DNA of 34,354 bases, from assembly GCA_019242155.1 (NCBI GenBank), contig JAFAWA010000182.1, positions 1 through 34,354 of the forward strand, read 5' to 3'. The DNA comes from Terriglobia bacterium. Lineage in GTDB: Bacteria > Acidobacteriota > Terriglobia > Bryobacterales > Bryobacteraceae. Positions 3,294 to 23,360 of the stretch are shown here, piece after piece. Position 1 is the stretch's first letter; the number at the start of each line of letters is the position of its first letter. The notes under the pieces are model-generated. The model was not told where the DNA came from and searched no databases. It worked only from the letters and a program-made list of their open reading frames with translations. Both the position numbers and the translations under genes were made by a program.

Positions 3294-3841
3294 GTGAAAT
3301 ACGGCTACGCGCGAGTCTCGACTGATGGTCAAAGCGTTGCCGCTCAGGTGGATGAACTGACCCGCGCCGGAGCCCAAGAGATTTTGAAGGAGAAGGTAAG
3401 CGGCCGATCACCGAACGTCGGCAACTCAGCCGCGTGTTGGATGCACTCGATGAAGGCGACGTGCTGTTAGTGACGCGGCTTGACCGCCTCGCCCGAAGTA
3501 CCCGTGACTTGCTCAATACGCTCGCACTCATTGCGGACAAGAGAGCGGGCTTTCGCTCCCTTGGCGACACATGGGCCGACACGACGACAGCCCACGGCCG
3601 GTTAATGCTCACGGTGCTTGCCGGGCTGGCCGAGTTCGAGCGCGAGCTGATCCGCGCACGCACCGGAGAAGGCCGTGCAAGAGCAAAGGCCCGAGGCGTG
3701 AAGCTCGGGCGGAAATTCAAACTGACGCCGCACCAACGCAAGGAAGCAATGGCCCGTAGGGAGAGCGGAAAGGAATCGCAGACCGAGATCGCCCGCAGCT
3801 ATAACGTCAGCCACAGCACCATTTCGAGGCTCTCCATATGA
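3294..3841 (+). pseudogene. Serine resolvase/invertase, frameshifted
   Basis: The protein starts at GTG 3294 (MKYGYARVSTDGQSVAAQVD), with the YxRVST motif holding the catalytic serine at residue 9. The frame is lost after EILKEKVSG (about 3400) and resumes one base out of phase as TERRQLSRVLDALDEGDVLL, then VTRLDRLARS, GLAEFERELIRART and a C-terminal DNA-binding helix-turn-helix (ARSYNVSHSTISRL). Length would be about 182 residues, normal for Tn3/Hin-type small serine recombinases. One base appears missing near 3405. Upstream TGCATAA boxes are candidate binding sites, and the WGR gene overlaps its stop. Confidence 0.8.
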
Positions 3842-4065
3842 CCGCTATCGTCCTCTATCAAGTCGATGCCAGCAAACACATGTACCGTTATTGCCGCTTG
3901 GACGTGCAGCCAGACCTCTTCGGGCAATGGTGCCTCATGCGAGAATGGGGACGCATCGGCAACACCGGCCAGACGCGCGCTGTGCCTTTTCCTACCCAAG
4001 ACGAGGCCATAGCCGCCCTCAACAAACAGCGGCGCGCGAAGGAGCGCAGGAGATATTCATCGTGA
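3838..4065 (+). CDS. WGR-domain protein
   Basis: A 75-residue protein that is almost entirely one WGR domain: YQVDASKHMYRYCRLDVQPD, then FGQWCLMREWGRIGNTGQTR and a basic tail (RRAKERRRYSS). WGR domains are thought to bind nucleic acid and occur in PARPs, in some polyA polymerases and as stand-alone bacterial proteins. Its ATG overlaps the resolvase stop (ATGA), implying translational coupling. Stand-alone WGR genes are frequent plasmid and integrative-element passengers of unknown role. The gene is intact although its upstream partner is not. Confidence 0.75.
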   Translation: MTAIVLYQVDASKHMYRYCRLDVQPDLFGQWCLMREWGRIGNTGQTRAVPFPTQDEAIAALNKQRRAKERRRYSS

Positions 4066-4221
4066 ACGTGGACAGATTAGCCTATATTAAGGGCTTAAAT
4101 TCGTTCGCCGCAGGGGTGTCGGTGGTGCGTGAAGCCGTGTAAAGTATCAGGTCGCCGCGATTCTCGCGCCGACCCAATTCCCTCTCCACTTGGCCTCTCG
4201 AAAGCTGTTATTCTTCCTGAA

Positions 4222-5013
4222 ATGGATCTTGAGATTGAGAACACTATCGACATCGAACGTCGGGAGTGGATGTCACAGCTCGGTCTGGCTTTCCGCGAGC
4301 GTGATGATGCGTGGCATGCTCAGGCTTCGCTCGCACGCGAAGCCGCGATCAAGAATTTAGAGCGGTCGCAACGGCCACAGAGCGACTATAAATTACTCAA
4401 CTATCAAGCCCTGAGAAAAATTGTGGACGCCCGTTTGCAGCTGCGCGAAGAGTACGGAAAATTTAGACGTGATCTGCTAGGCGACGAACAGCTATCGGCT
4501 CTTCGGAATGAGCTTAAAGATTATATTATGAGCCTCGCCGAAACCGATATCCCATCTATTCCCGCTAGAGATGATCTTGTGGCATACCTGCAAACACAAA
4601 CTGATAAGTTGGCATTAAAAAGAAAACGGTGGCTCATGACGGATGAGGCAAAAAACATTAGCGTCACCCTCAATAATAGTGGGGGTGCTGTGGTCAACAT
4701 CGACAGCATTATCGGACAAATCCACACGAACGTCCGCTCTATTGCAATGGCAGGCGACTCGCAGTTTGCTGACGCAGTTACGAAACTTTCTGAAGCTATT
4801 AAGACCTCCGAAGGCCTTGGCGAGGAACGCGGTGAAACTTTACAAACCGTTGAGGCTCTCAGCAAAGAAGCCGCCAAGTCACCTGCGGAGCGTTCCATGG
4901 GAGTTACTAAGTCTCTTTATCTCGGGCTTGCCAGCGGTGTCAAGGTTGCCAACGATTTGGCTACCGCATGGCATACTTACGGTCCAGTTATCGCAGCTCA
5001 TCTTGGGATTTAG
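4222..5013 (+). CDS. Hypothetical coiled-coil protein (263 aa)
   Basis: The frame is open from a GTG at 4129, but residues before the ATG at 4222 (MDLEIENTIDIERREW) look non-coding, so I prefer 4222 (263 aa). The first 170 residues are charged and helical. The segment ISVTLNNSGGAVVNIDSIIG resembles the short beta-rich element of small phage and plasmid proteins of unknown function, followed by an amphipathic helix and a more hydrophobic C-terminus (YLGLASGVKVANDLATAWHT), possibly membrane-associated. Composition is more AT-rich than the neighbours. No function is assigned, and no clear ribosome binding site was found. Confidence 0.55.
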   Translation: MDLEIENTIDIERREWMSQLGLAFRERDDAWHAQASLAREAAIKNLERSQRPQSDYKLLNYQALRKIVDARLQLREEYGKFRRDLLGDEQLSALRNELKDYIMSLAETDIPSIPARDDLVAYLQTQTDKLALKRKRWLMTDEAKNISVTLNNSGGAVVNIDSIIGQIHTNVRSIAMAGDSQFADAVTKLSEAIKTSEGLGEERGETLQTVEALSKEAAKSPAERSMGVTKSLYLGLASGVKVANDLATAWHTYGPVIAAHLGI

Positions 5014-5076
5014 CAGTTAGCTCCTTATTGTCGGCTGCCTTCGTAGCACCGGAGTTGCATCGAGTAGCACGGGACC

Positions 5077-5096
5077 ATGATAATGTCCTTTATCAT
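5077..5096. repeat. Inverted repeat ATGATAA/TTATCAT
   Basis: Perfect 7-bp arms with a 6-nt spacer (ATGATAA-TGTCCT-TTATCAT) lie between the 4222-5013 gene and the small broken gene at 5135. No T-run follows, so it is a poor terminator; it could be an operator. Confidence 0.35.
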
Positions 5097-5134
5097 AGAG
5101 TCGAAACAGAAGACAGCGGAATTGTTTTATACTG

Positions 5135-5378
5135 ATGGCTGGAAAACGCGTCCATGATGAACGTAAAACGGCACCCTCTACCTGAACCAGCTCACCGACG
5201 CGCAAGTGGCAAAATTGTATGAATACAAGGCCGGCCACGAAGGCAGCTTCAACATAGTTACCAACCCAAACCAGCAGTATGCCGCGCGACGAATTCAACC
5301 GCACTGCAATTGCAATTGTCTTCGCCTGATTCCTTGGACCTCATCAACTCGCTGGTTAAAGAGCTTTTGAAGACCTAA
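5135..5378 (+). pseudogene. Small hypothetical protein remnant, two frameshifts
   Basis: Three consecutive frames give a plausible protein of about 80 residues: MAGKRVHDERK from ATG 5135, then NGTLYLNQLTDAQVAKLYEY with GSFNIVTNPNQQYAAR after a shift near 5165, then STALQLQLSSPDSLDLINS and VKELLKT to TAA 5376-5378 after a shift near 5287. I do not recognise the family. The reading is based on protein-like sequence only and none of the frames is long, so confidence is low. The opposite strand at 5295-5486 is also open but looks like a mixture of shadow and unassigned sequence. Confidence 0.3.
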
Positions 5379-5520
5379 AGAGCCACCGGGCATCTTGCTC
5401 AGCCGCCCCGCTCCGCTTTTGCGCAGCGTGGCCGTGGACGTGGCGAGACTGCGTAGCTCTCCATCGTTCAGTGCTTCAGGAGCCACGAACCGACGGAAAT
5501 GCGTGCGGTCTGCGGCTAGC

Positions 5521-6259
5521 TTACTTGAGAATCCCGGACTTGTGCAGCAGTTCCTCGACCAACGCCCGGTACGCGTCGATCTTCTCTCGAATGTATTCGC
5601 GCCTGCACTGGTAGGTAATTTTGTGGGCCGAATAGTTTCCCAGGGCGCGGAACGTGTCGATCCATTCCCGCCCGTTGCGGGAAAGGTTCAGTTTGGCATT
5701 GCCCTGTGCGTTTTTCACGACGCCTTCCAGCATCAAATAGTTGCCGCTCTTCGCGTCTTTGATTTCGGCCTCGATGCCAACATGCTCATAGGACAGGATC
5801 AGCAGTACCTCTTCCAGACGGCGCATCAACACGGCGCAGCCATCGAAGATGTTGTGCTCGTATGAGGAGTTGATCTGTTTTGCGAGGCTGACGATGTAAC
5901 CGCGTCCCGTCTTTTCGTACAGAACTGGCGGCAGAATTGTTCCGTCGTCAGCTACCTCCTGCGACCTCTCCGCAAAGCTGAGGAAATTTGCCATCCAGTT
6001 CGTTGATCAGGTTATGATGCAGCCGGAATACCCCGGCCTTACTCCCCCGCACTGTCTCCCGGCTGCTTTTCAGCCTTGCCGCCAGACGCGACACGTTGGG
6101 ATTACCCATCCGGTTTTCCCGAATCCACTTCGCGCCGTCCCCGGCCGTGAATTCCTCCACCGCGCTTCTTCGCAAGTAAAAGAAAGCAAATCGAATCACC
6201 TTTTCGGTTTCATCCAAATCGGCAACCCCTGCGTCTTTGATGAACTTTTCGAAGGTCAT
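5521..6259 (-). pseudogene. HEPN/DUF4145-like protein, frameshifted
   Basis: The N-terminal half starts at ATG 6259 (MTFEKFIKDAGVADL) and includes a helix-turn-helix-like stretch (NPNVSRLAARLKSSRETVRG). The C-terminal half, in another frame from about 5965, reads YIVSLAKQINSSYEHNIFDG, CAVLMRRLEEVLLILSYE and WIDTFRALGNYSAHKI, the pattern of DUF4145/HEPN helical bundles. HEPN proteins are often toxins or RNases of defence loci, but the usual RxxxxH pair is not obvious here. The join needs a net +1 shift near 5965. The gene is divergent from the zinc-ribbon gene, with about 100 bp between them that includes TATTATACT, a possible -10 region. Confidence 0.6.
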
Positions 6260-6358
6260 CCCCAAGCCGCCTCAAACATTTCCGGCTGTCCATGTATTAT
6301 ACTGTGACTGAAGTATTCCCGTTAGATTCCTTACGTTTGATTGAAAGCAGAAACGGCG

Positions 6359-7226
6359 ATGGATTGCCCGAATTGCAGTCAGGCGCTCTCGGAGCGTGGT
6401 AGTTTTTGCAAAAATTGCGGTGCGCAGGCGCGCTGTCTTCAGTGCAAGGAGCTACTGGAGCCAGCCGCCAAAGCCTGTGTGGAATGCGGAACCCTCGTTG
6501 GTCACGGCAACCCTGCCGCCAGCGTAAACGGCACGAGCCACACTGATCTGCCGCAGGAAATGCCTGCCAACCGGAATACCATAACCTACCGCGAGGACCG
6601 CAATAGCAGGGATTTCCAAGCTTCATTGACCGACACGTCCATGCAGAGCGTCGGCACCGTGCTCGCCGAGGTCTTCGCGCAGCGCGGCGTCGGACGCGTC
6701 ACTCCGCATAGCCAGCATACGTTCAGCAAGGAATCACCCGTAATTGATGCGCTGAAGGGCATTGCGGCACCGGAGCATACCGGGGAGCAGACTCCGCCCA
6801 ATACCCATGAAACTCCGCCTCCGGCCCCCGAACTTACAAATATCGCGCGCCTTTTCCGTGCCACTGGCGACACCCTGGAATAAGATTGAACACCGCCTCA
6901 AAGCAAAGAGTGGCATGGAGTATGTGCGCCGCTTGACCTATCTTTTCCTGTACGCGTATGAGCTTCACGGTCGAGCGTGGGTCCCGCAGACACAGGTTTT
7001 TGCCATCCTTAAAGAGGGCAAAGTTCTGGATGCCAATGCCCGTTTCTGGCTGAAGAAAAAGAACGGATGCCGTATTGATGGCGAGGATCGCTTCCAGCTT
7101 CTGGAGGCCGGGCGGGAAGAGGCCAAGAAAGCTCTCGCAGACGCCATCGACGCCAATGTTCCAGACGACTGGAACCCGGATAAAAAGACGGCGCAGAAGC
7201 GCGGCCCACGAAAGAAAAAGGCCTAA
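6359..7226 (+). pseudogene. Zinc-ribbon protein with basic C-terminus, frameshifted
   Basis: From ATG 6359 the protein opens with a double zinc ribbon: CPNC and CKNCG (residues about 3-21), then CLQC and CVECG (about 31-50). A low-complexity linker leads to TNIARLFRATGDTLE, where the frame ends. One base out of phase it continues as KIEHRLKAKSGMEYVRRLTY, LFLYAYELHGR and a basic tail (KRGPRKKKA) to 7226. The break is a net +1 shift at about 6875-6882. Full length would be about 289 residues. The C-terminal part is not a family I recognise. The gene lies 52 bp before the methyltransferase on the same strand, so the two probably form an operon. Confidence 0.6.
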
Positions 7227-7278
7227 TCAGCGCCGTTTCCGAGGGTAGGCGGTTCGCCGCATAGGCGACTTGGCGTAA

Positions 7279-8407
7279 ATGGAACGACATAAAGCGAAAG
7301 ACACCGCGAGCAATCACCTCTACTACGGCGATAATCTCCGGGTACTGCGAGACTCCATTGCAGATCAAAGCGTGGACCTTGTATACCTCGATCCGCCGTT
7401 TAATTCGAACGGCAACTACAATGTCCTTTTCCGTAGTCCCAGCGGGGAGCGCTCGCACGCTCAGATCGAAGCCTTCGGCGATACGTGGCACTGGACCGAT
7501 GAAGCCGAGCGGGCCTTCGATGATGTAATGCGTTGCGGCAATTGCGAAGCGGCCGAAGTTCTGAGGGCGCTACGCGCTTTCCTCAAAGAAAATGACATGA
7601 TGGCCTATCTCGCCATGATGTGCGTCCGGTTGATCAAACTACGGCGGATTCTGAAGGAGACCGGAGCCTCTATCTGCATTGCGATCCGACGGCCAGTCAC
7701 TATTCAAAAATCATTCTCGATGCGGTTTTCGGCGCGCGCTTTTATCGGAACGAGATCGTCTGGAAGCGCACAAGCTCTCACAATGACGCCGCGAGGGACT
7801 CACCCGATACGGTAAGACGCACGATTTAATCCTGTTTTACTCGCGCTCCGATACCCCAACGTGGAACCAACTTTTCGTGCCTTACGATGACGATTACATC
7901 AAGTCCCACTATGGGCAGGTCGAGCCCGGCACCGACAAGCGTTTCACGACTTCTGACCTGACGGCGGCGAAGACGGGCGGCGATACGTCATACGAGTGGC
8001 AAGGAGTTACGCCGCGGAAAGGCAGGTATTAAGCGTATTCACGCGCGAACATGGAGAAGTTTGAGGCCGAAGGCAGGCTCGTGTATGGCAGAACCGGGGT
8101 TCCACGGCTGAAGAACTTTCTTGACGACATGCCCGGCGTCGTCCTCGGATCAGTCTGGAACGACATACCGCCGATCAATTCGCAGGCGCAGGAGCGCCTC
8201 GGGTACGCCACACAGAAGCGTACCGCGTTGCTCGAGCGGATCATCACTGCCAGCACCCATGAGGGGGATATGGTCCTCGACCCGTTCTGCGGCTGCGGAA
8301 CTACGATCCACGCCTCGCAGAAGCTACGCCGCAACTGGACCGGGATAGATATTACACACTTGGCGCTCATCGAAAAGCGCCTTAACGACGCTTTCGCGCG
8401 CATAGAA
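7279..8407 (+). pseudogene. Beta-class DNA methyltransferase, multiply broken
   Basis: An SAM-dependent DNA amino-methyltransferase with the motifs in beta order: LYYGDNLRVLRD, catalytic motif IV VYLDPPFNSNGNYN, then SAM-binding motif I DPFCGCGTTIHASQKLRRNW. It is badly damaged. Single-base losses lie near 7663 (ETG to SLYLHCDPTASHY) and near 7800 (to RYGKTHDLILFYS). A TAA at 8030-8032 sits where relatives have tryptophan (GRY-stop-AYSRANMEKFEAEG). The C-terminus ends abruptly after LIEKRLNDAFARI at about 8400, where the primase gene begins. It probably belonged with the zinc-ribbon gene upstream. Target sequence unknown. Confidence 0.75.
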
Positions 8408-8420
8408 CCACGGCGAGGCG

Positions 8421-9277
8421 ATGGAACACCATACCGGCAGTACGGCACCTTTGGAAGCGCAACGCATGCTCGATGCCTTCGCCAGTGTCGGCGTGCAGCA
8501 ATTCGACATCGCCCACACCAACATCGAACAGGAGAGAAGGGGCTACCGAAGAGCGCAGACCTTTCGCCAGGCCAAAACCTCCATGCCCTACCTCTTGGAT
8601 TCAGCCCCGCGCCGCCAACAAATGTCATTATCCGGCCGCATCATCCCCCCGCCGTTGTTCTCGTTCAATTGGACGACTTGAAGCAGGAACAGCTTGAGTG
8701 TGTCCGGCCCGCCGCGTTTCTGGTTCTGCAAACCAGCCCTGGCAACCATCAAGCCTGGATAGCCGTCGAGAACGGCAACCGGGAGTTTGCCAGCCGCCTG
8801 AAGAAAGGCACGGGAGCGGACCTTACGGCCAGCGGCTCGGTGCGGGTGGCGGGAACCTTCAACTTCAAGCGCAAGTACGCGCCCAACTTCCCCTTGGTGA
8901 CGATTGAAGAGGCACACCCCGGCCGCATAGTTACCCGTACCGAGCTGGAGGGCAGGGGCCTGGTAGCACTGGCCCCGCCGAAACCGGAAGCGCCAGCTTC
9001 CCCCCTTCGATGTTCCGACCGGCCGCGCCGACTGGCATGGCCCGACTATGAGCGCTGCCTGGACAAGGCGATAAACCGGGGGAGAAAGCGCAGCAGCGCC
9101 GATTTCACGTGGTGCTGCATCGCCCTTGACCATTTCAAGCGCACGCCGGAGGAAACCGCCGCGAGGCTCTTGGAGGTGTCGAGCAAAGCGCGGGAAAACG
9201 GGGAGGCGTATGCGCTGGACCAGGCTATGAACGCCGCCGCGAAAGTGGCGGCGAATCCCCGCAGCCCGGCCAGATAG
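8421..9277 (+). pseudogene. RepB-type DNA primase, frameshifted
   Basis: Plasmid-type primase of about 285 residues. ATG 8421 opens MEHHTGSTAPLEAQRMLDAF, ASVGVQQFDIAHTNIEQE. The frame shifts by a one-base loss near 8620 into TNVIIRPHHPPAVVLVQLDD, LQTSPGNHQAWIAV, FASRLKKGTGADLTASGSVR and VAGTFNFKRKYAPNFP, the conserved core of RepB-primase-domain proteins. The end (SSADFTWCCIALDHFKRTPE, ETAARLLEVSSKARENGEAY) also fits. Such primases start replication of broad-host-range plasmids and act during establishment of mobile elements. Because of the shift, a false open frame from 8051 to 9277 fuses methyltransferase tail to primase core. Confidence 0.75.
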
Positions 9278-10375: not shown

Positions 10376-10420
10376 TTCCCAAGCTGGACGTCGCGGGTTC
10401 GAGCCCCGTCTCCCGCTCCA
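10376..10420 (+). other. Attachment site: 3' fragment of tRNA-Gly(CCC)
   Basis: This 45-nt block matches positions 32-76 of a glycine tRNA: anticodon loop TTCCCAA, anticodon 3' stem GCTGG, variable ACGTC, T-stem GCGGG, loop TTCGAGC, T-stem CCCGT, acceptor strand CTCCCGC, discriminator T and CCA. The T-stem pairs fully (one G-U). The sequence upstream (ACTTACGG) does not form the 5' half, so it is a fragment, not a working tRNA. Tyrosine integrases commonly target tRNA 3' ends and leave such copies. The integrase gene ends 55 bp to the right. Confidence 0.8.
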
Positions 10421-10474
10421 TCTTTTCAAAGACTTGAGAATCATCAGCAACTTCTTCCACTCCATTCCACTCCG

Positions 10475-11689
10475 TTAAGCCGCTACGGAGCGGTTTTCCT
10501 CTGTTTCGCGCTCCCTCGCAGCCGTCTCCGGCTGCTCTCCGGACAGAATCGCGTTCGCCAGCATCTCGGCGGCTGCCCGCCGTGCTTCGATGCTGGATTG
10601 GGTGTAAACGTCGAGCGCCACGCCGATGCCGTGGCCGCGTTGATCCGCAGCTACCTTCGGGTCCACCTTGATGTCGTGGCCGAGGCTGGCATGCGTCCGC
10701 CGCAGCACTTGAAAGTTGGCCCATTCATGCCCGACCGTTTCCAGTTTGGGCTTCATGTGCCGATACCAGACGTTATCGCGCCAGAGAGGCTTTTCGGCAT
10801 TCTCCGATGCGAATACCCAGGCTTCCGGCTTGCGATCCACCAACTCCATCCACTCGTGAAGCACGGCGGCGGTGGGTGAGGGGATGCCGACTTTCCTCTT
10901 GGAGAGGGCCGTCTTGGGATCGTCAATGTCGCCGCGATATAAGCGCTGCTCGATGATCAGCTCGCTGCAATCTTCCGCAACGTGCTTTCGCTGAAGCGCC
11001 AGTATCTCGCCGGGCCGCATCCCGGCAAAGAGCGCCAGGTGATCGATGACGCGCTCGCGCAGTGGCAGCGCATTGATATGTTGCTGTGCCTCCTTTCGGT
11101 TCATGACGCGCTTGGTCCCGACCTTCGCCTCTTTCGGGGTGAAGAGGGCAGGGGTCGGGTCGCGCTGGATATAGCCTTCCGCCTGAGCGAGCCGGAACAC
11201 GGCCCGCAAATCCCACCGCAGATGCGCCACGACGCTTTTGGAGAGCGTCGTTGCCTTCGCTGTCAGAAACGCCTGGAGCCTCTGTACTCCGAGACTGGTG
11301 AGCTTCTCCGGCCCGAATTCCCCCAGCAGGTGATGACCAATGCGGTTTTCCGTGTCCCTGGTGGAGCGCTTCCACTTGGACCGCAGAGACGGCAAGGCAA
11401 CGCCTTCGAGAAAATCCCCGAAGGTGATGTGAGGATCGGGAGTGCTCGCAGCCCTGGCGTTCACTTCCTTCATGAACTCCGCCTGTGCCTGCTGCGCGTC
11501 GCTCTTGCTCATCTTCGAATACAGGCCGATGGTGTGGTACTTCTTGCTGCCACCGTCCCGATATTGAAGAATCCACATTTTGCGCTTGCCGTGGGTTGAA
11601 ACGACTTGCAAACTGCCGTTTTGATATCGCTTTCGCCGCACAATTTCCTTTCGTGCGTTCCCGGCGATCAACTCAGTTGATCGGATCAT
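10475..11689 (-). CDS. int: Tyrosine site-specific integrase
   Basis: A 404-residue tyrosine recombinase of the phage-integrase type that would integrate and, with excisionase, excise the element. An N-terminal arm-binding region (about 20-60) and SAM-like core-binding domain (about 88-180) precede the catalytic domain. Active-site candidates are R225 (FAGMRPGEIL), K259 or K264, R330 (FQVLRRTHAS), H353 (DQRGHG) and nucleophile Y362 (DVYTQ). The usual histidine of HxxR is Q327, a variant I recall from related element integrases. The stop lies 55 bp from the tRNA-Gly fragment, typical int-att geometry. The ATG is 16 bp after the excisionase stop. A palindrome covers codons 3-8. The gene is intact. 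Confidence 0.9.
   Translation of the reverse strand: MIRSTELIAGNARKEIVRRKRYQNGSLQVVSTHGKRKMWILQYRDGGSKKYHTIGLYSKMSKSDAQQAQAEFMKEVNARAASTPDPHITFGDFLEGVALPSLRSKWKRSTRDTENRIGHHLLGEFGPEKLTSLGVQRLQAFLTAKATTLSKSVVAHLRWDLRAVFRLAQAEGYIQRDPTPALFTPKEAKVGTKRVMNRKEAQQHINALPLRERVIDHLALFAGMRPGEILALQRKHVAEDCSELIIEQRLYRGDIDDPKTALSKRKVGIPSPTAAVLHEWMELVDRKPEAWVFASENAEKPLWRDNVWYRHMKPKLETVGHEWANFQVLRRTHASLGHDIKVDPKVAADQRGHGIGVALDVYTQSSIEARRAAAEMLANAILSGEQPETAARERETEENRSVAA
10480..10497 (+). terminator. Possible terminator hairpin facing integrase end
   Basis: CCGCT-ACGG-AGCGG followed by TTTT could stop rightward transcripts arriving from the toxin-antitoxin operon. It lies inside the last codons of the oppositely oriented integrase gene and the stem is only 5 bp, so the call is weak. 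Confidence 0.3.
11666..11682. promoter_or_regulatory. 17-bp palindrome at integrase start
   Basis: GATCAACT-C-AGTTGATC is a perfect palindrome with 8-bp arms and a 1-nt centre, lying within codons 3-8 of the integrase gene. A repressor or excisionase bound there could limit integrase expression. It could also be codon coincidence, although chance 8-bp arms are uncommon. Confidence 0.4.
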
Positions 11690-11705: not shown

Positions 11706-11978
11706 TCAGCGGTACAGGCCGGTAAGCCTCTGTGCTTCGATTTCTCGGGCCTCGACGGTGAGCATCCAAGCCTTCAGTCCTTCATGGCGGATAAGCACGC
11801 GCCTGCCGATGCGCAGGACGGGGAGGGGCGGAAGGTCCGGCACTTTGCCGTGAATGATGTTGTGGACATGCGCTTTCGAGCAACGCAGCTCGCGCGCGAC
11901 TTCCGCGACGGTCAGGACATTGCCGTCTTCGGAGAATGTCGGCGGCGCATAGTCGTGTGCGCGTAGAGGCCGGTTCAT
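11706..11978 (-). CDS. Excisionase-like helix-turn-helix protein
   Basis: A 90-residue MerR/excisionase-type winged helix: VLTVAEVARELRCSKAHVHN (about 21-40), then GKVPDLPPLPVLRIGRRVLI and RHEGLKAWMLTVEA. Proteins of this fold act as recombination directionality factors that bend attachment-site DNA. Its ATG overlaps the methyltransferase stop (ATGA at 11975-11978) and it ends 16 bp before the integrase, so all three are probably co-transcribed leftwards. A plain transcriptional regulator is the alternative, but the position favours excisionase. Confidence 0.8.
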   Translation of the reverse strand: MNRPLRAHDYAPPTFSEDGNVLTVAEVARELRCSKAHVHNIIHGKVPDLPPLPVLRIGRRVLIRHEGLKAWMLTVEAREIEAQRLTGLYR

Positions 11979-12683
11979 AAGAGCGGCTCCCGAATATACG
12001 TGGGCGCGAAAAGATCACGCTGCGCGTGCGCGGCTTCCATCCGGGCGCGCGCGGTGTTGAAATAGTCCTCGCGCCTCTCGATGCCGATGAAACTGCGGCC
12101 AAGCTTCAGGCAGGCAACGCCGGTCGTGCCCGATCCCATGAAGGGATCAAGTACGGTGTCTCCCTCGTCGGTGAATTTCTTTACCCAATCCAGCAGCAAG
12201 GGCAGGGGCTTCTGGGTGGGGTGGTCGCCGCGCTCGGGATTGCATATCCACACCGCGTGATGGCCTCCGCCATTCCAATGCTTCTTGCCTTCGCCGTGAA
12301 GGATGACGATAGCTTCCCATCCGGTGCCTGGGCGGTCACCGGAGAAATTAGGCGCACCGTTGGGCTTCAGCCAAATGCCGAACCGTACGAGCGGCAGGCC
12401 TGCGTTTTCCAGCTCGGCGACGTAGCGCCATTCGGACGACATGATTACCCACCGCTTTGCCAGTTGAACTGCATGGGTACAGAATGCGATGAACTGCTCC
12501 TCGGTGGTGCTGTCGAAATCCACGAGAGGCGAAAGGCTGCCCTTTCAGGGTCATAGCTCTTTCGTGAGTCAAGGATCCGTAGGGTGGGTCGGTGATGATG
12601 CTATCGACTTCGCCCAAGATCGGCATGATGTCGAAGGCGTCGGCCAGGTAGAGCGTGGCCGCGCCGATGTGCTCTTTATGCAT
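11975..12683 (-). pseudogene. DNA methyltransferase in excision operon, frameshifted
   Basis: A second beta-class DNA methyltransferase. From ATG 12683 it reads LYLADAFDIMPILGEVDSII then TDPPYGSLTHERAM, with catalytic DPPY. After one net +1 shift near 12530 it continues DFDSTTEEQFIAFCTHAVQL, GHHAVWICNPERGDHPTQKP and SAM-binding DPFMGSGTTGVACLKLGRSF. The joined protein is about 236 residues, like phage Dam-type or orphan methyltransferases. The missing phase makes the gene non-functional as written. It could protect entering DNA or tune expression of the overlapping excisionase gene. It starts 10 bp after the preceding membrane-protein stop. Confidence 0.75.
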
Positions 12684-12692
12684 GGCATGGCC

Positions 12693-13330
12693 TCATCTTC
12701 CGTTTTTGTTAAGGATCAACTGCGTGCCCCGGCATTTGCCCTCGCGCCATTCGACGGCCACCTGGTTGGTGCCGAACGGCGTCACGTTAAATCCGTGGTT
12801 TCGCAGTCGTCGTTGGGGGCCACCACGGTCTTATCCAGCGTGAAATGCAGCGAGCCGTCCTCCGGCACGCCGGTTAAGACCATTGCGACGGGATTGAGGT
12901 TCTCGCGCTGCTGCCGGGGCAATACGCGGCCACCGCGAAGGGAGCCGAGCCCTGCGGGCGGCATGCAGTTAAGCCGCGCATAGCCCTTGTAATCCTCCGG
13001 CTTCTGTGGCAGGGAGCGCATTTCAAGCCTTAACGTACACATGCCGTTCTGATTCAGGAGGCGTTGCCCCATCCACGCGCCCGAAAGGTTCGACAGGTCG
13101 GTGAGCACGACGGCGGGGATTTTGCCTTGCTTGGGCGTTTTGGGAGCGGGTGGCGGTGTGTTCGCCCTGGCCCGCTGCTGCGCCGCGCGGATCGCCTGCT
13201 CCCGGTAGTAAGCCGCCCGTTGCGCCGCGTTGTTCATGAAGCGGACGACAAACCACAGCACGACGATTGCGCCGCAAAAGATATAGAAATTCCGTTGCTT
13301 GGTTGTGAGATTACTCATTGGATTGTTCAT
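12693..13330 (-). pseudogene. Membrane-anchored element protein, late frameshift
   Basis: The start at 13330 has a good ribosome site (GAGGTGA). Residues about 12-32 (FYIFCGAIVVLWFVVRFMNN) form one membrane anchor, followed by a basic, proline-rich linker (RANTPPPAPKTPKQGK) and a soluble domain with cysteines (GMCTLRLEMRSLPQ, ARLNCMPPAG). The current frame ends at 12782. One missing base near 12795 would extend it as GFNVTPFGTNQVAVEWREGK then CRGTQLILNKNGR to TGA at 12693, which looks like the original end. The family is unknown. It is oriented periplasm-outward in the excision operon, an unusual place for a membrane protein. Confidence 0.6.
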
Positions 13331-13392
13331 GGATCACCTCGCATCATTGAATGGGCGCGTGAAGCCATCAAGAGCCCGCGCGCCCTGGATGA

Positions 13393-13851
13393 CTATTTGG
13401 CCGCTAGCGTCGGCGTGGCCGGTGCCGCAGGAGGGCAGGGCTTGCCTTGCGCGTCCTTCAAGACCTGGCCGGGTGCCTTGGAATCGAGATCGACGCCGGT
13501 CTTGCCTCCGAGTTGCTTGGCCTGTTTGTCGAGCGCGTCCTGCACCGCTTTCGGAAGATGAAAACGCGGTTTCTTTGCGGGAGTCGCAGCGCATCCGGGC
13601 TGCGTGGGCGGAACGGCTGCTCCCTGCTTAGCGCCCGGATTCGCTCCGTTTTTCTGTTCCTCGGCAAATGCTTTGTCGAGGTTCTGCATCGCGCGCCGGA
13701 CAAACTCCTGCTGGTCAGGCGAAAGACGCTTGAACTGCGGATCGTCCTCCATGCTGGCTTTGGGCGGCGGAGCTGGTGGGTTGGTCTGCGCCCTGGCTGC
13801 GAATGGCACAAGCAGGACGGAAAAAAGAAGGAAAAGGGTTTTGCGTTTCAT
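13393..13851 (-). CDS. Secreted hypothetical element protein
   Basis: I start the gene at ATG 13851, because MKRKTLFLLFSVLLVPFAAR then AQ is a textbook signal peptide; an upstream TTG at 13884 would bury it. The mature protein (about 130 residues) is proline/alanine-rich with a helical segment (FKRLSPDQQEFVRRAMQNLD) and conserved-looking KKPRFHLPKAVQDALDKQAK. No family is recognised. It is the first gene of the leftward operon ending in excisionase and integrase, and shares a divergent control region with the winged-helix/TPR regulator. It could be a surface or mating-related factor. The stop codon is TAG. Confidence 0.65.
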   Translation of the reverse strand: MKRKTLFLLFSVLLVPFAARAQTNPPAPPPKASMEDDPQFKRLSPDQQEFVRRAMQNLDKAFAEEQKNGANPGAKQGAAVPPTQPGCAATPAKKPRFHLPKAVQDALDKQAKQLGGKTGVDLDSKAPGQVLKDAQGKPCPPAAPATPTLAAK

Positions 13852-13874
13852 GGCTCCATGCTGGAGCGCGGCGG

Positions 13875-13900
13875 GACTTTTCAAAAGTCAAACGATGTCA
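13875..13900. promoter_or_regulatory. Candidate operator, copy 1, with palindrome
   Basis: Positions 13883-13900 read AAAAGTCAAACGATGTCA, identical to the reverse complement of 15761-15778. It overlaps a palindrome, GACTTTT-C-AAAAGTC (13875-13889). The site lies between the start of the leftward excision operon (13851) and the regulator start (13958), so a bound protein could control both. Confidence 0.6.
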
Positions 13901-13957
13901 GATGGCGCTCAATGGCGGAATACTGGCGTCAGGCGGGATAATGCAGGTTCCGGCGCT

Positions 13958-15331
13958 ATGAGTACCGGCAACGCCATCCCGACACGTGAGGAAAAGGAGG
14001 ACCAGCTTGCGCGCATCCTCGCAAGCTCGACCTTGGCGAAGAACCAAACGCTGCAACAGCTATTGGAAAGGCTCGTCATCGACCACCTCGATGGGAAACC
14101 CGTCAACGAAGACACCCTTGGCCGGGAAGTCTATGGCAAGCCCAAAGGGTGGGTTCCGATGCAGGAAGCGGTGGTCCGCGAGGGCATGCGCAATCTGCGC
14201 AAGCGGCTGAATCTCTACTATCGCGCTGAAGGCCACGACGACCGTCTAATCGTCGATTTCCCAAAGCGAACGGGCTACACGCCGCGATTCTCCTACAATG
14301 CAGCGGCCGATGCGGAAGAGACCGTGCGTCGTTTCGAGAGCGATTTCGGGCCACGCGTTCCCCGACCTGATGCGCTGCGGGAAGATTGTCACGGAGCTGG
14401 AGGCCTGGATTGCCTTGCATTCCTCCTATGCTCCCGCCTACGCGCTTCTCGGCGAGGCAATCCTGATGTGCGTTCTGTGCGACGAGGCCTCCGCGTTCCC
14501 TAAGCCCGGTGCGCTCCTGCGCGCGGAAGCGGCGTTGAGGACCGGCATGGAGCTGCATCCCGAGCTATGGCGGCTGCACGTGGCGGCCGGTGCCGTGCAT
14601 TGCTGCCGCTTTGCCTGGGACAAGGCGGAGCGGGCGTTTACGACCGCACTGCGTCTTGCGCCGGAGGAGACCCGCGCGCATTTCTGGTAGCGGCGTTTCT
14701 GCTCGCGGTGGGAAGGACCGAGGAAGCTAAGCAGAGCGTCACATTCCGCGAGAACACTACGCCGAAGGCGCGATTCACTTCCTATCTCCGCCCCGTGTTT
14801 CTGTATGTGCTGCGCGAGCCAAAGGCGGCATACGACAATCTCACACTGCAGTCGCCTTTTTTCTTCGATATCGTAAGCCGGTTCGAGTATGTTTGCGGCG
14901 ATGAAATCGTGCCGTTTGACGATTGGCCTGTCGAAATCCTCATGGCGCTACTGTGCCTCGCGCTGGATCAGGTAAAGGCCGGAATGCGATACGCACAAGC
15001 GTTTAACGGCCTGGTGGTGACGACGCGCTGGGCGGTGGGGAATGTTTACAAGGATGCAAGAGAGGCTGCTCTGTCGTTTCTGGCGCGACTGGAAACGGAA
15101 ACGCGCTGGCAAAGCCCGGTGTCGCTGGCGCTGGCCTATATGGCCGTGGAAAGAACGGAAGAGGCAGTTGCCAAGCTGAAAGAGGCCTGCGAGATCGGGA
15201 ATCCACTGATGGTCTGGCTGCATCTCTGGCCAGTATTCGATTCCCTGCGGGATCATAAAGGCTTCAGGACCCTCATTCGCCGAATGAAACTACCGAAGGC
15301 GGGACTTGCCGCCCGCATCCCCTCCGCGTAA
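13958..15331 (+). pseudogene. Winged-helix/TPR regulator of the element, two frameshifts
   Basis: Residues 1-110 from ATG 13958 form a winged helix of the kind common in Acidobacteria: LARILASSTLAKNQTLQQLL, TLGREVYGKPKGWVPMQEAV, VREGMRNLRKRLNLYYRAEG, VDFPKRTGYTPRFSY. The C-terminal two thirds consist of TPR-like helices (YAPAYALLGEAILM, WDKAERAFTTALRLAPEETR, SLALAYMAVERTEEAVAKLK), a likely sensing or oligomerisation region. Two shifts, +1 near 14350 and -1 near 14680, split the frame. Intact length would be about 457 residues. It is divergent from the excision operon across the 18-bp operator, so it is probably the regulator of excision and transfer. Its end overlaps 15290-15670. Confidence 0.75.
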
Positions 15332-15670
15332 CCGGCGCGTATGCTCCGCGTCCTCTCGCGGAGTGGTGAATGGGCCTGCTGCTTTGTCAATATCCGCCAG
15401 GATTTGCTCGTCGGGACGTCCCTCCCATGCTATGGCTCCTGGAAGAGCTTCGCCCCAACGATGGTGGTAACGCGAGTGCAGTTCGTCGGCTTTGTCGGGC
15501 GTAATTCCGCCGGCGGTGTAGGCGCTCTCGATTTCTGACAGCTCCTTGACGCGCAGTTCAAGCGCTTTCCTGGCGTTCCTGATCTCACGTTCGGTCCAGT
15601 GCTGGATTTCTGTGGGCGTGAGGAAATCCTTAGAGTCCTCGTTCCCGCCTGCCTGCGTTCTCTTCGCCAT
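15290..15670 (-). CDS. Hypothetical coiled-coil protein
   Basis: I prefer the ATG at 15670, which has GGGGAG upstream, over the longer frame from 15766. The 126-residue protein is charged and helical, with a probable coiled coil in TEREIRNARKALELRVKELS, and later GGITPDKADELHSRYHHRWG. No family is recognised. It faces the regulator and overlaps its last 42 bases. Its upstream region is shared with the coupling-protein gene and holds the second 18-bp operator copy. It is intact while both neighbours are broken. The stop codon is TAG. Confidence 0.55.
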   Translation of the reverse strand: MAKRTQAGGNEDSKDFLTPTEIQHWTEREIRNARKALELRVKELSEIESAYTAGGITPDKADELHSRYHHRWGEALPGAIAWEGRPDEQILADIDKAAGPFTTPREDAEHTRRLRGGDAGGKSRLR

Positions 15671-15760
15671 TGCGCGACTCCCCGGCAATTGAAACGGCCA
15701 AAGCGTAGTGGCGGCGCGCATGGCGGTCAACCGCGATTCATGGCGGACACCGTAGGCATT

Positions 15761-15778
15761 TGACATCGTTTGACTTTT
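15761..15778. promoter_or_regulatory. Candidate operator, copy 2
   Basis: TGACATCGTTTGACTTTT is the exact inverted copy of 13883-13900. It lies 44 bp before the coupling-protein ATG and 91 bp before the leftward 15670 gene. TTGACA is present at 15760-15765, but no -10 is at normal spacing. The remainder of 15671-15822 shows no gene. Confidence 0.6.
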
Positions 15779-15822
15779 ATAGAGTGCACCGCTCGCCCAA
15801 AACCGGCTTCAGGTGAACCGAA

Positions 15823-17344
15823 ATGGGACTGCTTGATTTCTTCCGGCGCGACAACTCGACACCCCGCGATACTTCTTTGGGCGCGATGCTCACGGGGAAA
15901 GACCCGTGGAACCTCGATGCGCCGCTGTTCATGTGGTCGCCCTGCGACGCCTTCACTCTGCGCAATGCGGTGGAATCCGTTTGTATATTCGGCGAGCTGG
16001 GCGCGGCCAAGACGACCGGCTCGGCGGCGTAGATTCTCCTTAAATACCTCGAACTCGGCATGGGCGGCCTGGTCTGCTGCGTAAAGCCCGGCGACCGGGA
16101 ATTAATCGAGGCCTATGCGCGCTTCACCGGGCGATCGGAGTCGCTTGTGGTCGTGTCCCCGAAGAACGCCTGGCGCTGCAATCTTGTTCGCTATGCCCTG
16201 ATGCGGCCCGGTATCGTCGGCAGCCGCGTGGAAACGATTGTCTCGCTGCTCATGACCATCGTCGAGGCGGCGGAGCGCAGCGACAAGGGCGGGGGCCAGC
16301 AGGATAAATTCTGGCAGCGCTCGCTCCGCCAAATACTTCGCAACGGTATCGAGGTCTGCATTGCCGCCAAGGGCGAAATCACGATGAAGATGCTTCACGA
16401 CGTGATTACCTCGGCTCCCCGCTCGCACGCAGAGGTGCATGACAAGGAATGGCAGGCCTCGTCCATTTGCTACCGGCTGATTGAGGAAGCCGAGGCGCGC
16501 GAAAAATCCGAGCGGGCGCAAAGCGATTTCGAGCTGGCCGCGCGGTATTTCCTGCGGGAATTTCCCGACATGCCGAACGATACGCGCGGCTCCATTCTCG
16601 CCGCCTACGGCGTGATGGGCGACGTGCTCCTGCGCGGCCACATGGCTGATTTGTTCGACGGGGAGACGACATTCCTTCCCGATCTGACTTTCGATGGGGC
16701 GATCATCGTCCTCGATCTGCCGACGAAGGTGTACGGCCAAGCCGGTGTCCTGGTGCAATCGGCCTTTACTTACCTCTGGCAAACGGCCTGCGAGCAGCGC
16801 AACGTCAAGGCCAATCCCCCGGCCCGTGTTCTGGTTCGTGGATGAAGCGCACGAGCTGGTGTCCAATTACACGCCGGAATTCCTGGCGACCGCGCGCAGC
16901 TCGCGCGTGGCCTCGGTGCTGATTTCCCAGAACAAGCCCAATTACCTGGCCGCGATGGGCGGCGAAGCCGGACGCCCGCGCGTCGATGCCTTTCTCGGCA
17001 ATACCGGCACGAAGATATTTTACGCGAACGGCGATCCCGAAACCAATCGCTGGGCCTCCGACACGATCTCCGAAGCAATCCAGACACGCGCCAACTGGCA
17101 CGGCTCGGGAGAGGCCGGACAGGGCAGGGGCGGCGGGTCGGAAGCGCCTGGACACAAGGTGCTCGCCTCCGAGTTCACCGCCCTTAAAAAGGGCGGGCCG
17201 CAAACCGGCTTCATGACCGACTGCATCGTGTACCAGACGGGTGCCAGCTTCGCGGCCAATGGCGGCGAGCCGTGGATGCGCACGACTTTTCGCCAGCAGA
17301 TACCGGGCGTCACGATTCCCGAGCGGGGCGCGGACAAGCGGTAA
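15823..17344 (+). pseudogene. VirD4/TrwB-like coupling protein, amber and frameshift
   Basis: A type IV coupling ATPase that would link the relaxosome to a secretion channel; about 507 residues if restored. Residues 1-69 end at TAG 16030-16032 (CIFGELGAAKTTGSAA-stop), and the same frame resumes ILLKYLELGMGGLVCCVKPG. A second break is one extra C in a C5 run at about 16817, after which VFWFVDEAHELV (Walker B) and SSRVASVLISQNKPNYLAAM follow. Walker A has GAAKT where GxGKT is expected, so the P-loop glycine is lost. No transmembrane anchor is evident, although the 17418 membrane protein might replace it. It heads the transfer operon behind operator copy 2. Restored function looks unlikely. Confidence 0.8.
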
Positions 17345-17417: not shown

Positions 17418-18164
17418 ATGAAGCTATACAAAGAAACGCGAGAGCTGCTCAAGGGCACCGAGTCCTGGCGGGTATACGAAATGATGCTGGCGATTATCAG
17501 CCTTGTCAGCGGCTGCTTCGCCATCAGCGTCGTGCCCTTCATCCGGAAGGATTTCGGCGAGCGTTACCTGAGCTGGCTGAATCTGTCTTTCGGCTACACG
17601 GTCGTCGCCTGCTTCATGTTTTTCGGCGGGCTGCTGTCGTTCCTCACCCGCTGGGGAGGACAGCAGTTCATGACGCTGTTCTTTCTCGCATTTATCGCCA
17701 TGAGCGTGTACCGGCGCTGGGAAATTGATCGGCGCAACAATGCCGGTGTTCCCTGGCACAGCATGTACATGGGAACGTCCATGCTGCCGCTGCCTTTCAG
17801 CGACGAAAAGGTCTATAAATTTTTCGAGCCCGCGCTGGTCTTCGGTGCCGGAAATCTGCTCTACGCATTGTCCGGCCAGGTGGGGCTATGGCTGATGATC
17901 AGCGCCGTCGCCCTGTTCATCAATAACCACATCGTCTACTACAACGAGCGCCGCACCATGCTCGACATGCGCGACGCGGAAATCGAAGCGAAGTATCTAA
18001 CCGCCGCCCTCTCCGGCAAGCCCGTGGCGGAAACGGCGGGCTTCGTCGTCGCCGAATCCAGCATCAAGCTCATGGGACAGGACGCGAGACTGAACGCCAA
18101 CCTCTCCCCCGAACTTCGGGAGGTGCTTACTCCCGAGAGCGCAACTGCGCCGGAATCGAGGTGA
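17418..18164 (+). CDS. Conjugal-region membrane protein
   Basis: A 248-residue protein starting at ATG 17418 with a near-perfect ribosome site (GAAGGAGG). Hydrophobic segments at about 22-40, 54-76, 82-97 and 150-175 suggest four or five membrane helices, and a charged C-terminal region (about 183-248) would be cytoplasmic. I recognise no family. The place between the coupling protein and small transfer genes suggests it is a membrane partner for the anchorless coupling protein or part of DNA export. The next gene starts 6 bp downstream. Intact. Confidence 0.65.
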   Translation: MKLYKETRELLKGTESWRVYEMMLAIISLVSGCFAISVVPFIRKDFGERYLSWLNLSFGYTVVACFMFFGGLLSFLTRWGGQQFMTLFFLAFIAMSVYRRWEIDRRNNAGVPWHSMYMGTSMLPLPFSDEKVYKFFEPALVFGAGNLLYALSGQVGLWLMISAVALFINNHIVYYNERRTMLDMRDAEIEAKYLTAALSGKPVAETAGFVVAESSIKLMGQDARLNANLSPELREVLTPESATAPESR

Positions 18165-19257: not shown

Positions 19258-22107
19258 ATGTTGTTTGTTAATCACCAGTCGAACGCCCGCAAAGACTATT
19301 TCACCGAGCATCTGTCGAAATCCGACTACTACATGAAGGACGCCCAGGAGGTCGTGGGCGACTGGCATGGACGCGGCGCGGAGCTGCTCGGGCTGTCGGG
19401 ACAGGTGGACAAGGACAGCTACTTCCGGCTCTGCGAAAACGTCAATCCCGAGAGCGGCGAGCAACTCACTCCGCGCACCAAAGCGGAGCGGCGGGTGCTC
19501 TACGATTTCACCTTCGACGCCCCCAAGTCGGTCACGCTCGCTTACGAGCTGGGCGGGGACGACCGCATCATGAACGCCTTCCGCGATTCCGTCAAAGAAA
19601 CGATGGGCGAAATGGAGGACGCCATGCGCGTGCGCGTTCGCAAGAACGGCGCGCGCGAGGACCGGTAGACCGCCAACATGATCTGGGGCGAACTCATCCA
19701 CCGCACTACCCGGCCCTTCGATGGAATTCCCGATCCGCAACTGCACTGTCACGCCGTCGCATTTAACGCCACTTACGATCCGGTGGAGGATCGCTGGAAG
19801 GCCGGGGAGTTCGAGCCTCTGGTGCGCGACAAGGGCTATTATCAGGCGGCATTTCATTCGCGTCTCGCCGAAAAGCTCGATGCGCTGGGCTACGGTATCG
19901 AGCGCGACGGAAACAGCTTCCGGCTGGCCGGTATCGACCGGGACACCTGCGACGAATTCTCGCGGCGCACGGCCCGTATCGAAGCCGAGGCCCGCCGTTT
20001 GGGAATCACCGATCCCAAGGCGCTGCGCGAGCTGGGACGCAAGACGCGCGAGGCCAAGCCGGAAAAGCAGATGAGCATGAGCGAGTTGCGGACGGAATGG
20101 ATTAACCGCCTGAAGGACGGAACGTTTAACGCGATCAAGGGCGCGCGGGACAGCTGGAAAACCCAGGCGCTCGACGCGGACCAGGCGGTGGATTACGCCC
20201 TGGCGCATTGCTTCGAGCGCTCCTCGGCGGTGACGAAAAAGAAGCTGCTGGAAACCGCCCTTATTCAGGGTTTCGGAAAGGCGAGCGTCAAGGACGTTCG
20301 CAACGCGGCCAATCGCGATTCCATCCTGCACAACGACAAAAACGGACGCCGCTACGTCACCACCCGCGACGTGCTGCGGGAAGAACAAGACATGATCGAT
20401 TTCGCCCGCGACGGTCGCGCCACCCGCGAGAAGCTGGGCGGCTACCGGGATTTCGATCTCGATCCCGAATTAAGCCCCGATCAGCGCAACGCAGCACTCA
20501 CGATTCTGAATTCCCGCGACAAAGTGACCGGGCTTTCCGGCAAGGCCGGGACGGGTAAGACCAGAATGGCGAAAGCCACCCTGACGGTAATTAGAAGCTC
20601 CGGCAAAGAGGTCTTTGCCTTTTCGTCCTCCGCCGAAGCGGTGGACGTGCTAAGGAACGAAGGCTTCCCCAATGCCGAGACGGTGGCCCGGCTGCTCGTC
20701 GATAGGGAAATGCAGAAGCGCGTCAAAAACTGCGTGCTCTGGATCGATGAGGCGGGAATGCTTTCCGTGAAAACGATGAAGGCGGTGTTCGATGTTGCGA
20801 AGGAACAAAATGCCCGCATGGTTGCCGTGGGCGATTCCGGCCAGCACAATTCCGTGGAGCGCGGCGACGCCATGCGGGTGCTGGAGAACAATGAGGCGAT
20901 GAAATTCGCCTCGCTCACGGAGATCCGCCGACAGACGGACGAAAACTACCGCGAGGCGATTGCGGCTATCAGCCAGGGCGACAAGGTAGGCAAGGACGGC
21001 AGGACGAAGCTGCAGGCCGGTATGGCCGCGCTCGACAATATGGGCTCCATTATCGAAGTGCAAGGCCCGGAGCGATACAAGCGCATCGCCGAGGATTATG
21101 CGGATGTCATTTCCCAGCGGAAATGGAATCCGCGCGCAAGGAATGGGAGAACAAAACCTCCCTCGTCGTCTCCCACCCATGCCGAAATCCGCCATGTCAC
21201 GGCCGCGATACGCGAGACGCTTAAAAGCCAGGGCAAGCTCGGCGCGAAGGAGCGCGAATTCGTTTCCCTGCGCTCGCGCAACCTCACGGAGGCCGAGCGC
21301 ACGGACGCACAATCCTACCAGGCGGGCGACGCGATCCAGTTCCACCAGAACGCCAAGGGCTTCAAGCGCGGCAAGCGTGTGACGGTAGTGAGCGCCGGCG
21401 CGAGAAACACGGGCAGGGGGATGACGGGAATTACGGTGATCCGCGCGGACGGAAACAAGGCGCTGCTGCCGTTTAGCGAAGCGAAGAAATTCCAGGTGTA
21501 CGAGCCGCAGAAGGTCGCCCTGGCCGAAGGCGACAAGCTGCGCCTGACGATGAACGGATATGTGGGAGAAGAACGGCGGGGGGCGCTGGGAGTGAAGGGT
21601 AAAGACCGGCTCAATAACGGCACGCTTTGCGAGGTGGACGGCTTCACCCGCCAAGGCGGTATCCGGCTCACGAATGGCGTTGTCATTCCCAAGGACTACG
21701 GCGGATTTACGCACGGGTATGTCGTCACTTCCCACGCCTCGCAGGGAAAGACTGTTGATGTGCCGCTGGTGGCCTTGGGCTCCGAATCCTTTGCCGCCGC
21801 GAACCGCGAACAGCTTTACGTGTCCCTCTCGCGCGGGCGCGAGGCCGTCCGGCTCTATACCGACGACAAGGCCGCGATGATGGAGGCCGTGCAAAGCTCC
21901 GGGGCGCGCATGTCGGCCACGGAATTAATGGGCGTCGATGCGGGCCGGAAAGCCGCCGAGAAGCAACGCAAGCACACGCTGCTGGAGCGATTCCACCGGC
22001 ACGCCCGCAAAGTCTATTACAAGCTCCGCGAGCGGCTCGCCGCGCACGATTACGTCCAGGCGTATATCGCCCACCATCAACGAAAGGGAATCGGCCATGA
22101 AAGATAG
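19258..22107 (+). pseudogene. MobF (TrwC/TraI-type) relaxase-helicase, internal amber
   Basis: A conjugative relaxase fused to a helicase. It would nick oriT, bind the 5' end through tyrosine and unwind the strand; about 949 residues if codon 137 is read. N-terminal tyrosines (KDYF, SDYYMKD, Y14/Y24/Y25) and the metal histidines DPQLHCH (about 160-165) mark the HUH domain. The helicase has Walker A GKAGTGKT (about 427-434), Walker B WIDEAGM (about 495-501), GYVVTSHASQGKT and LYVSLSRGRE. TAG at 19666-19668 separates tyrosines from histidines: EDR-stop-TANMIWGE, same frame both sides. A restart at ATG 19678 would give helicase without tyrosines. The end overlaps the next gene by 11 bp. The own stop is also TAG. 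Confidence 0.88.
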
Positions 22108-22521
22108 CGACGCGCATGCAAGGCACCCAGCTCCCGGCTCGAACGTCCAGAGATTCCTCAAGGCTCAGCCGCCGCGCCATGAGCCAACCGAGGAAGAGGC
22201 GATGGAGTCGTATCAGGAAGCGCGAGCGCAAAGCCGCGAAGCGCTCATGCTCGATATAAAACTGGCGAGTGGGCGCATTGTGAGCCTGCCCTATTCCTCG
22301 CTGGAGATGGTCGATTATCTTCCCGATGGCACGCTCCTGCTGGATTTCGGCAGACGCCGGGTCGTAACCGAAGGCCGCAACATGCTGGGGTGCGCGAGCT
22401 GATAACCGAGCACAGGGCGAGATTTATTCAGGAGGGCTTGGACATTCAGCGCGGGCCGAAAGACGCGGACGCGGTGCATTTTGAGCGGATCGAAGTCACG
22501 GAAGTTAAGGAGGAATTATGA
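22097..22521 (+). pseudogene. Small relaxase-linked protein, late frameshift
   Basis: Starts at ATG 22097, 11 bp inside the relaxase gene. MKDSDAHARHPAPGSNVQRF precedes a compact domain: LMLDIKLASGRIVSLPYSSL, EMVDYLPDGTLLLDFGRRRV. The present frame stops at 22402. One missing base in the G4 run at 22387-22390 would extend it as VRELITEHRARFIQEGLDIQ, RGPKDADAVHFERIEVTEVK to TGA 22519-22521, overlapping the next ATG (ATGA). The joined product has about 141 residues, resembling small DNA-binding-like proteins often found beside MobF relaxases. The name and role are unknown. Confidence 0.55.
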
Positions 22522-23360
22522 CGCAGGAAACGGTACGGGCGCTGTCGGATGCCGATCTCTCGCAGGTCGTCGCCTGGGCGCCAGCGGAAACCAAGGCGCG
22601 CGCGGAAAATTTAGCGCGGTTCTTCGATGCGCTCGAAATTAACACCTCATTCTACGGGCCGCCCCGCGCCTCCTCATCCGCGAAGTGGGTTGAAGCGACT
22701 TCGCACAACCCGAACTTTCGCTTTACGGCGAAGCTCTATCGCGCCTTCACCCATGAGCGTAATGCGACTGCAAAGGACGAACAACTCTTCAAGGAGGGAA
22801 TGGAGCCGATTGCGGCCGCCGGCCGGCTCGGCGCGATTCTCCTGCAATTTCCGATCTCTTTCAAGAACACTCCCGACGAACTCGCCTATCTGCTGCGGTT
22901 GTGCGGGCGATTCCGCGAATATCCACTGGTCATGGAGGTCCGTCACAGCAGTTGGGACGACGCGGCTGTGCTCGACATGCTGGCCGAACGCGAAATCGGT
23001 GTCTGCAACATCGATCAGCCGTTGCTGGGTCGTGCCCTTAGACCGGCCGCTCACTGGACCGGACCCGTAGGCTATGTGCGCCTCCACGGGCGCAATTACC
23101 GGGCGTGGTTCGCTGAAAACAAAACGGTAAATGAGCGTTACGACTACTTGTACAGCGTCGCCGAGCTGGAGCCTTGGATTGAACGCATCAGAGAGATTGG
23201 AAAGCGTACCGAAGACACTTACGCCATGTCGAACAACCACCATCTCGGGAAGGCCGTGGTCAACGGCTTGGAATTGACGGCGATTCTGAAAGGCAAACCG
23301 ATCACCGCGCCTGAAACGCTTGTTTCCGAATATCCCGAATTGAAGGAGTACGGCGCCTGA
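22518..23360 (+). CDS. DUF72 (YecE-like) protein with substituted N-terminus
   Basis: From about residue 21 this is a DUF72 protein: ENLARFFDALEINTSFYGPP, FRFTAKLYRAFTHER, GRLGAILLQFPISFKNTP, EYPLVMEVRHSSWDD, WTGPVGYVRLHGRNYRAW and AMSNNHHLGKAVVNGLEL fit the TIM-barrel family of unknown function. The normal opening strand (a GTSGW..PDW segment) is absent. Residues 1-20 (MTQETVRALSDADLSQVVAW) resemble the start of a different small protein and are preceded by a perfect AAGGAGG site and an ATGA overlap with the element gene. The frame is therefore a chimera joined near 22577, and loss of the first beta strand probably inactivates it. Confidence 0.8.
   Translation: MTQETVRALSDADLSQVVAWAPAETKARAENLARFFDALEINTSFYGPPRASSSAKWVEATSHNPNFRFTAKLYRAFTHERNATAKDEQLFKEGMEPIAAAGRLGAILLQFPISFKNTPDELAYLLRLCGRFREYPLVMEVRHSSWDDAAVLDMLAEREIGVCNIDQPLLGRALRPAAHWTGPVGYVRLHGRNYRAWFAENKTVNERYDYLYSVAELEPWIERIREIGKRTEDTYAMSNNHHLGKAVVNGLELTAILKGKPITAPETLVSEYPELKEYGA

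Follow-up and report, generated by a model that had tools for sequence, protein, structure and literature searches.

Switches that co-ordinate the excision of a mobile element with the transfer of its DNA are known in few cases. In the IncA/C plasmids and the SGI1-type islands, one activator, AcaCD, acts through the same motif placed before the excision factor and the mobilization genes (PMC4605294, PMC4207636). In ICEMlSymR7A, the excisionase RdfS binds attP without a consensus motif, and its gene heads an operon with transfer genes (PMC11963761). As regards operators built of direct repeats, the OmpR-type regulator PhoP recognizes 7-bp motifs that are repeated in the same direction and separated by 4 bp (PMC4832192). 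In this work, we analyzed a stretch of 34,354 nucleotides from a Terriglobia bacterium (contig JAFAWA010000182.1 of assembly GCA_019242155.1; hereafter, the window), in which an integrated element carries the same 18-bp sequence in its two divergent control regions. The position of the copies and the comparison with related elements give good support to a common operator linking excision with transfer, and we lean towards the fuller reading in which this operator, co-ordinating both processes, is probably bound by the product of the neighboring winged-helix (wHTH) gene as the candidate regulator.

The element has an integrase with a tRNA att remnant, a relaxase and a coupling protein, and it is thus an integrative conjugative or mobilizable element (Table 1). 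The att remnant was recognized as such because intact tRNA-Gly genes at other places in the host genome terminate in a near-identical 30-mer. The left unit comprises, in this order, the genes for a secreted protein, mem182, an N6/N4 methyltransferase, an HTH_17 excisionase (xis) and a tyrosine integrase; the right unit comprises those for a TraD/VirD4-type coupling protein (T4CP), mem248 and a MOBF relaxase. There is no VirB4-sized open frame in 10.4-22.6 kb of the element, whose right end is truncated. The first 31 amino acids of a DUF72 gene (22518-22610) match sequence 3' of the relaxase in L072 and L076, and the right end therefore seems to be fused into this truncated chromosomal gene. 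To the left of the att remnant, the region 3434-9277 contains part of a serine recombinase as well as methylase-like frames, which may be left over from another element, and a 22-bp exact direct repeat is present at 82-103 and 117-138.

Table 1. Coordinates of the two sites and of the element features in the window.
Feature	Position	Strand	Remarks
att remnant, 3' end of tRNA-Gly	10391..10420	+	just beyond the integrase gene
Tyrosine integrase	10475..11689	-	open frame, 404 aa
Excisionase-like HTH_17 protein (xis)	11706..11978	-	90 aa
N6/N4 DNA methyltransferase	11975..12683	-	frameshift, split over two frames
mem182, membrane-anchored	12782..13330	-	homologues adjoin xis in L129, L152, L154
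Small protein, signal peptide-like start	13393..13851	-	heads the leftward operon
Site 1, 29-nt block with 18-mer 13883-13900	13876..13904	-	reads TCTGACATCGTTTGACTTTT toward the secreted-protein/xis/int operon
wHTH/TPR-like regulator, pseudogene	13960..15331	+	two frameshifts (about 14350-14380, about 14685)
orf158	15290..15670	-	likely start ATG 15670; homologues adjoin the control region in L073, L080
Site 2, 29-nt block with 18-mer 15761-15778	15757..15785	+	reads TTTGACATCGTTTGACTTTT toward the coupling-protein gene
TraD/VirD4-type coupling protein (T4CP)	15823..17344	+	in-frame TAG 16030-16032, frameshift near 16820
mem248, membrane protein	17418..18164	+	3' of the coupling protein; 30-81% identical in L074, L076
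MOBF (TrwC/TraI-type) relaxase	19258..22107	+	in-frame TAG 19666-19668

The preliminary description had reported two identical, mutually inverted 18-bp sites, both intergenic and located at the two control regions of the element, and in this it was correct. The sequence AAAAGTCAAACGATGTCA occurs exactly at 13883-13900 (plus strand) and, inverted, at 15761-15778 (minus strand), and the similarity around the pair extends over 29 nt at 86% (13876-13904 / 15757-15785). Site 1 lies within the 108-bp divergent region 13852-13959, between the secreted-protein gene (ATG 13851, minus strand) and the regulator gene (ATG 13960, plus strand), and site 2 within the 152-bp divergent region 15671-15822, between orf158 (likely ATG 15670, minus strand) and the coupling-protein gene (ATG 15823, plus strand); the two regions jointly account for less than 1% of the window. 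The copies appear inverted because their two operons point opposite ways, and both have the same orientation relative to the downstream mobility genes. Read toward these genes, both contain the 10-bp direct repeat TTTGAC-N4-TTTGAC (the first half-site of site 1 being TCTGAC), with half-sites exactly 10 bp apart in each copy. No third site with up to three mismatches was found in the window (shuffles expect 0.02) or in the whole host genome (5.77 Mb), and the exact 18-mer was met in other collections only in two unrelated genomes and one viral contig, which is the chance level. A motif scan found no copy near the att remnant (10391-10475), which speaks against att-arm or Xis sites. An Rfam scan gave no matches.

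A chance 18-bp match had been judged very unlikely, which holds for these positions and in view of the related sites but not for the repeat alone: 19 of 150 order-3 Markov windows contained an exact 18-bp repeat somewhere, and any such repeat in a window of this kind is less rare than had been thought. What makes a chance origin of the pair unlikely is its position, with the copies in two divergent control regions and equivalent sites in related elements. The simulated frequency, together with the resemblance of TTGACA to a -35 box, would also suit a promoter core element, or the leftover of a duplicated promoter, working without a dedicated regulator. We consider this origin quite unlikely, however, since (i) a -10 box at a fitting distance was not found, (ii) the identity is limited to the core, the flanks having diverged, and (iii) equivalent tandem half-sites are present in the corresponding regions of other elements. 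No sigma-70-like promoter was detected at the sites or elsewhere in 13300-16200.

The clearest counterpart is L073, whose integrase, xis and relaxase are 67%, 67% and 52% identical to those of the window element. Here the wHTH gene is divergent from the coupling-protein gene and the orf158 homologue is divergent from xis. A repeat search performed without the window motif yielded an inverted 25-nt pair in these two divergent regions, reading TTTGACCCCTCTTGTCTTTC toward the coupling protein and CTTGACGGGTCTTGTCTTTA toward xis, and a third tandem, TTTAACCCCTTTTGAC, is present in the xis-side region. L111, which belongs to the same genus (integrase 77%), has the gene order wHTH/TPR - xis - methyltransferase - integrase and carries TTTGACGGTGTTTAAC in the 70 bp between the regulator and xis. 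With a motif derived only from the window and with regions delimited by the ends of genes, the observed scores were matched by 23/2000 and 7/2000 dinucleotide shuffles for the L073 regions and by 1/2000 for that of L111 (p about 0.0005), these p-values being somewhat optimistic as the L111 and L073 sites had already been seen before the regions were chosen. The matches in L154 (110/2000, opposite direction) and L115 (240/2000) were not significant, and the motif at 10-bp spacing was absent from the control regions of L074, L152 and L153 and from those of L080, which has a wHTH gene and a distantly related coupling protein. In the G320 and G002 assemblies, the contigs break off within the control region. 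The search in related elements thus succeeded for the control regions of L073 and L111, the only two other elements with clear sites, and failed for L074, L080, L152 and L153. In the three elements taken together, the six well-matched sites all point toward xis or the T4CP unit, and for this reason activation is the favored sign of control.

A scan of 237 family genomes with the joint consensus TTGACNNNNYTTGWCTTT, which was built partly from L073 and is therefore not independent (and partly circular for L073), gave 18 matches. Two matches in one genome were found only in G306, the source of L073, both of them in control regions, and the 15 matches outside G306 and the host genome of the window (G000) include none near element genes. 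These counts show that sites of this type are rare. In L152, upstream of a secreted-protein-like gene (3535-4308, minus strand), two head-to-tail 20-bp copies of TTTAACCCACCGCCGCTTCA are followed by TTAACCCA, two helical turns apart; this array is possibly a variant operator.

The arrangement of the operons also varies among these elements. The host genome harbors a second, related element, L154 (G000:C262), whose single operon for the secreted protein, T4CP, mem, mem182, xis and methyltransferase has a wHTH gene divergent from it, and the gene order of L152 is the same; the first gene of the L154 operon encodes a homologue (34%) of the small secreted protein of the window. In the window, the L154-type gene set is split into two operons pointing apart, each preceded by a copy of the site, while in L073 the four kinds of transcription unit (xis side, regulator, orf158 family and T4CP) are paired differently, with a site in both divergent regions. 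Among the bacterial families searched, close integrase relatives are confined to one, and a sample of the phylum contained none outside it. Searches of viral contigs with T4CP and integrase gave no matches, the integrase search of plasmids gave weak matches only, and the T4CP profile search retrieved two distant elements, both without a wHTH gene.

As xis is conserved in all these elements, its HTH_17 product might itself bind the sites and, like RdfS, combine the role of a recombination directionality factor with transcriptional control of excision and transfer. RdfS binds promoters in addition to attP and is needed for excision and transfer, and BldC-like wHTH proteins can bind 9-bp direct repeats (PMC11963761). 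Binding by the excisionase is nevertheless unlikely in our opinion: the surroundings of att, where an excisionase must bind, lack the motif, the sites are 3-5 kb away from att, and RdfS itself has no consensus motif.

The more probable binder, we infer, is the wHTH protein. A profile search, whose training set did not include L080, L111 and L154, located a wHTH gene adjoining the control region in seven elements (the window, L073, L074, L080, L111, L115 and L154). TPR similarity is weak in the window regulator, TPR-type matches are present in L074, and the wHTH protein of L073 (223 aa) gave no TPR match; what the regulators have in common is therefore the wHTH domain rather than the TPR. Hence, of the proposal that a winged-helix/TPR protein acts as master switch, the recurrent wHTH gene stands, whereas conservation does not extend to the TPR part, the motif is missing from the more distant elements L074 and L080, which do carry the wHTH gene, and the regulator of the window is frameshifted. 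The wHTH paralogue family is large, with 8 matches in the host genome and up to 17 in relatives; in the window, the domain spans 13961-14341.

The window domain was recognized by no Pfam or NCBIfam model and had no match to PF00486 (Trans_reg_C) above the Pfam cut-off. PF00486 matched 4 of 21 wHTH family members, weakly (best E 0.0041), and the alignment of the wHTH profile with the OmpR-type Trans_reg_C domains of the same genome gave an hhalign E of 5.5e-5 for a single comparison, with a probability of 66%. A profile search of PDB returned no meaningful match; the single-sequence structure model of the domain was poor (pLDDT 63), and Foldseek gave no useful match with it. The profile comparisons suggest that the domain is remotely OmpR/PhoB-like, a class whose members bind direct repeats in tandem, and a 6-bp half-site with a 4-bp spacer would be compatible with a PhoP-type binding mode. 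Another binder, namely an orf158-family protein or a host regulator, could be envisaged, as orf158 homologues also flank control regions (Table 1) and the host has OmpR-type regulators (17 PF00486 matches in its genome). It strikes us as rather improbable: orf158 has no DNA-binding domain recognized by Pfam, and the absence of the pair from the rest of the host genome speaks against a host regulon that uses exactly this site.

The copy of the element in the window is decayed, its regulator, methyltransferase, coupling protein and relaxase being broken. The in-frame TAG of the coupling protein (16030-16032) corresponds to Trp in L153 and that of the relaxase (19666-19668) to Gln in L076, each one base away; we took both as decay because frameshifts occur nearby, and a general sequencing error is unlikely because the large flanking chromosomal genes are open. 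The frameshifted regulator is probably inactive and, given the decay of the copy, the circuit is probably no longer active here. The idea that one regulator synchronizes excision with transfer is supported by the shared site, its equivalents in two elements and the wHTH gene in seven, but not by the state of the window copy, in which regulator, coupling protein and relaxase are all disrupted.

Altogether, we propose that the 18-mer would be the core of a duplicated operator in a mobilizable or conjugative element integrated at tRNA-Gly. Each copy would consist of two half-sites one helical turn apart and would be aimed at one mobility unit, site 1 at secreted protein-mem182-methyltransferase-xis-int and site 2 at coupling protein-mem248-relaxase. 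A DNA-binding protein, most likely the OmpR/PhoB-like wHTH regulator as a head-to-tail dimer, would act at both promoters, and excision and DNA transfer would thereby be switched together. More tentatively, and with somewhat greater doubt than confidence, it may be speculated that the element family is run by a one-component OmpR-like wHTH regulator, TPR-fused in several members, which binds TTTRAC tandem sites before the excision and transfer units, and that an ancestral single operon was split here with duplication of the operator, so that the coupling was kept. If this were true, a new type of regulator would join the few known switches of this kind, and the large wHTH family, with its many copies per genome, would have its first predicted DNA target. 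The split of an operon into two units with the same operator would also be a testable case of coupling surviving rearrangement.

The principle of co-regulation is already known from AcaCD/SGI1 and RdfS. On the basis of a narrow literature search, which found nothing on wHTH/TPR regulators in Acidobacteria, the element family and the type of candidate regulator appear new to a role in excision and transfer. With OmpR/PhoB regulators (PF00486; PhoP, PMC4832192), the system shares a remote profile similarity and a direct-repeat operator with about one helical turn between repeats, whereas in the present proteins the domain occupies the N-terminus, with TPR-like or other regions after it and no receiver domain before it, and that of the window lacks a Pfam match to PF00486. 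As in ICEMlSymR7A, where a wHTH protein of the element controls excision and transfer, L154 and L152 have xis and the coupling-protein gene in one operon; in contrast to RdfS, there is a separate wHTH gene and a clear motif that is absent near att. Finally, AcaCD is a complex of the FlhDC family that a helper plasmid provides, whereas the wHTH candidate is encoded within the element; the likeness to AcaCD/SGI1 lies in the same motif standing before the excision unit and the transfer unit, which is seen in both the window and L073.
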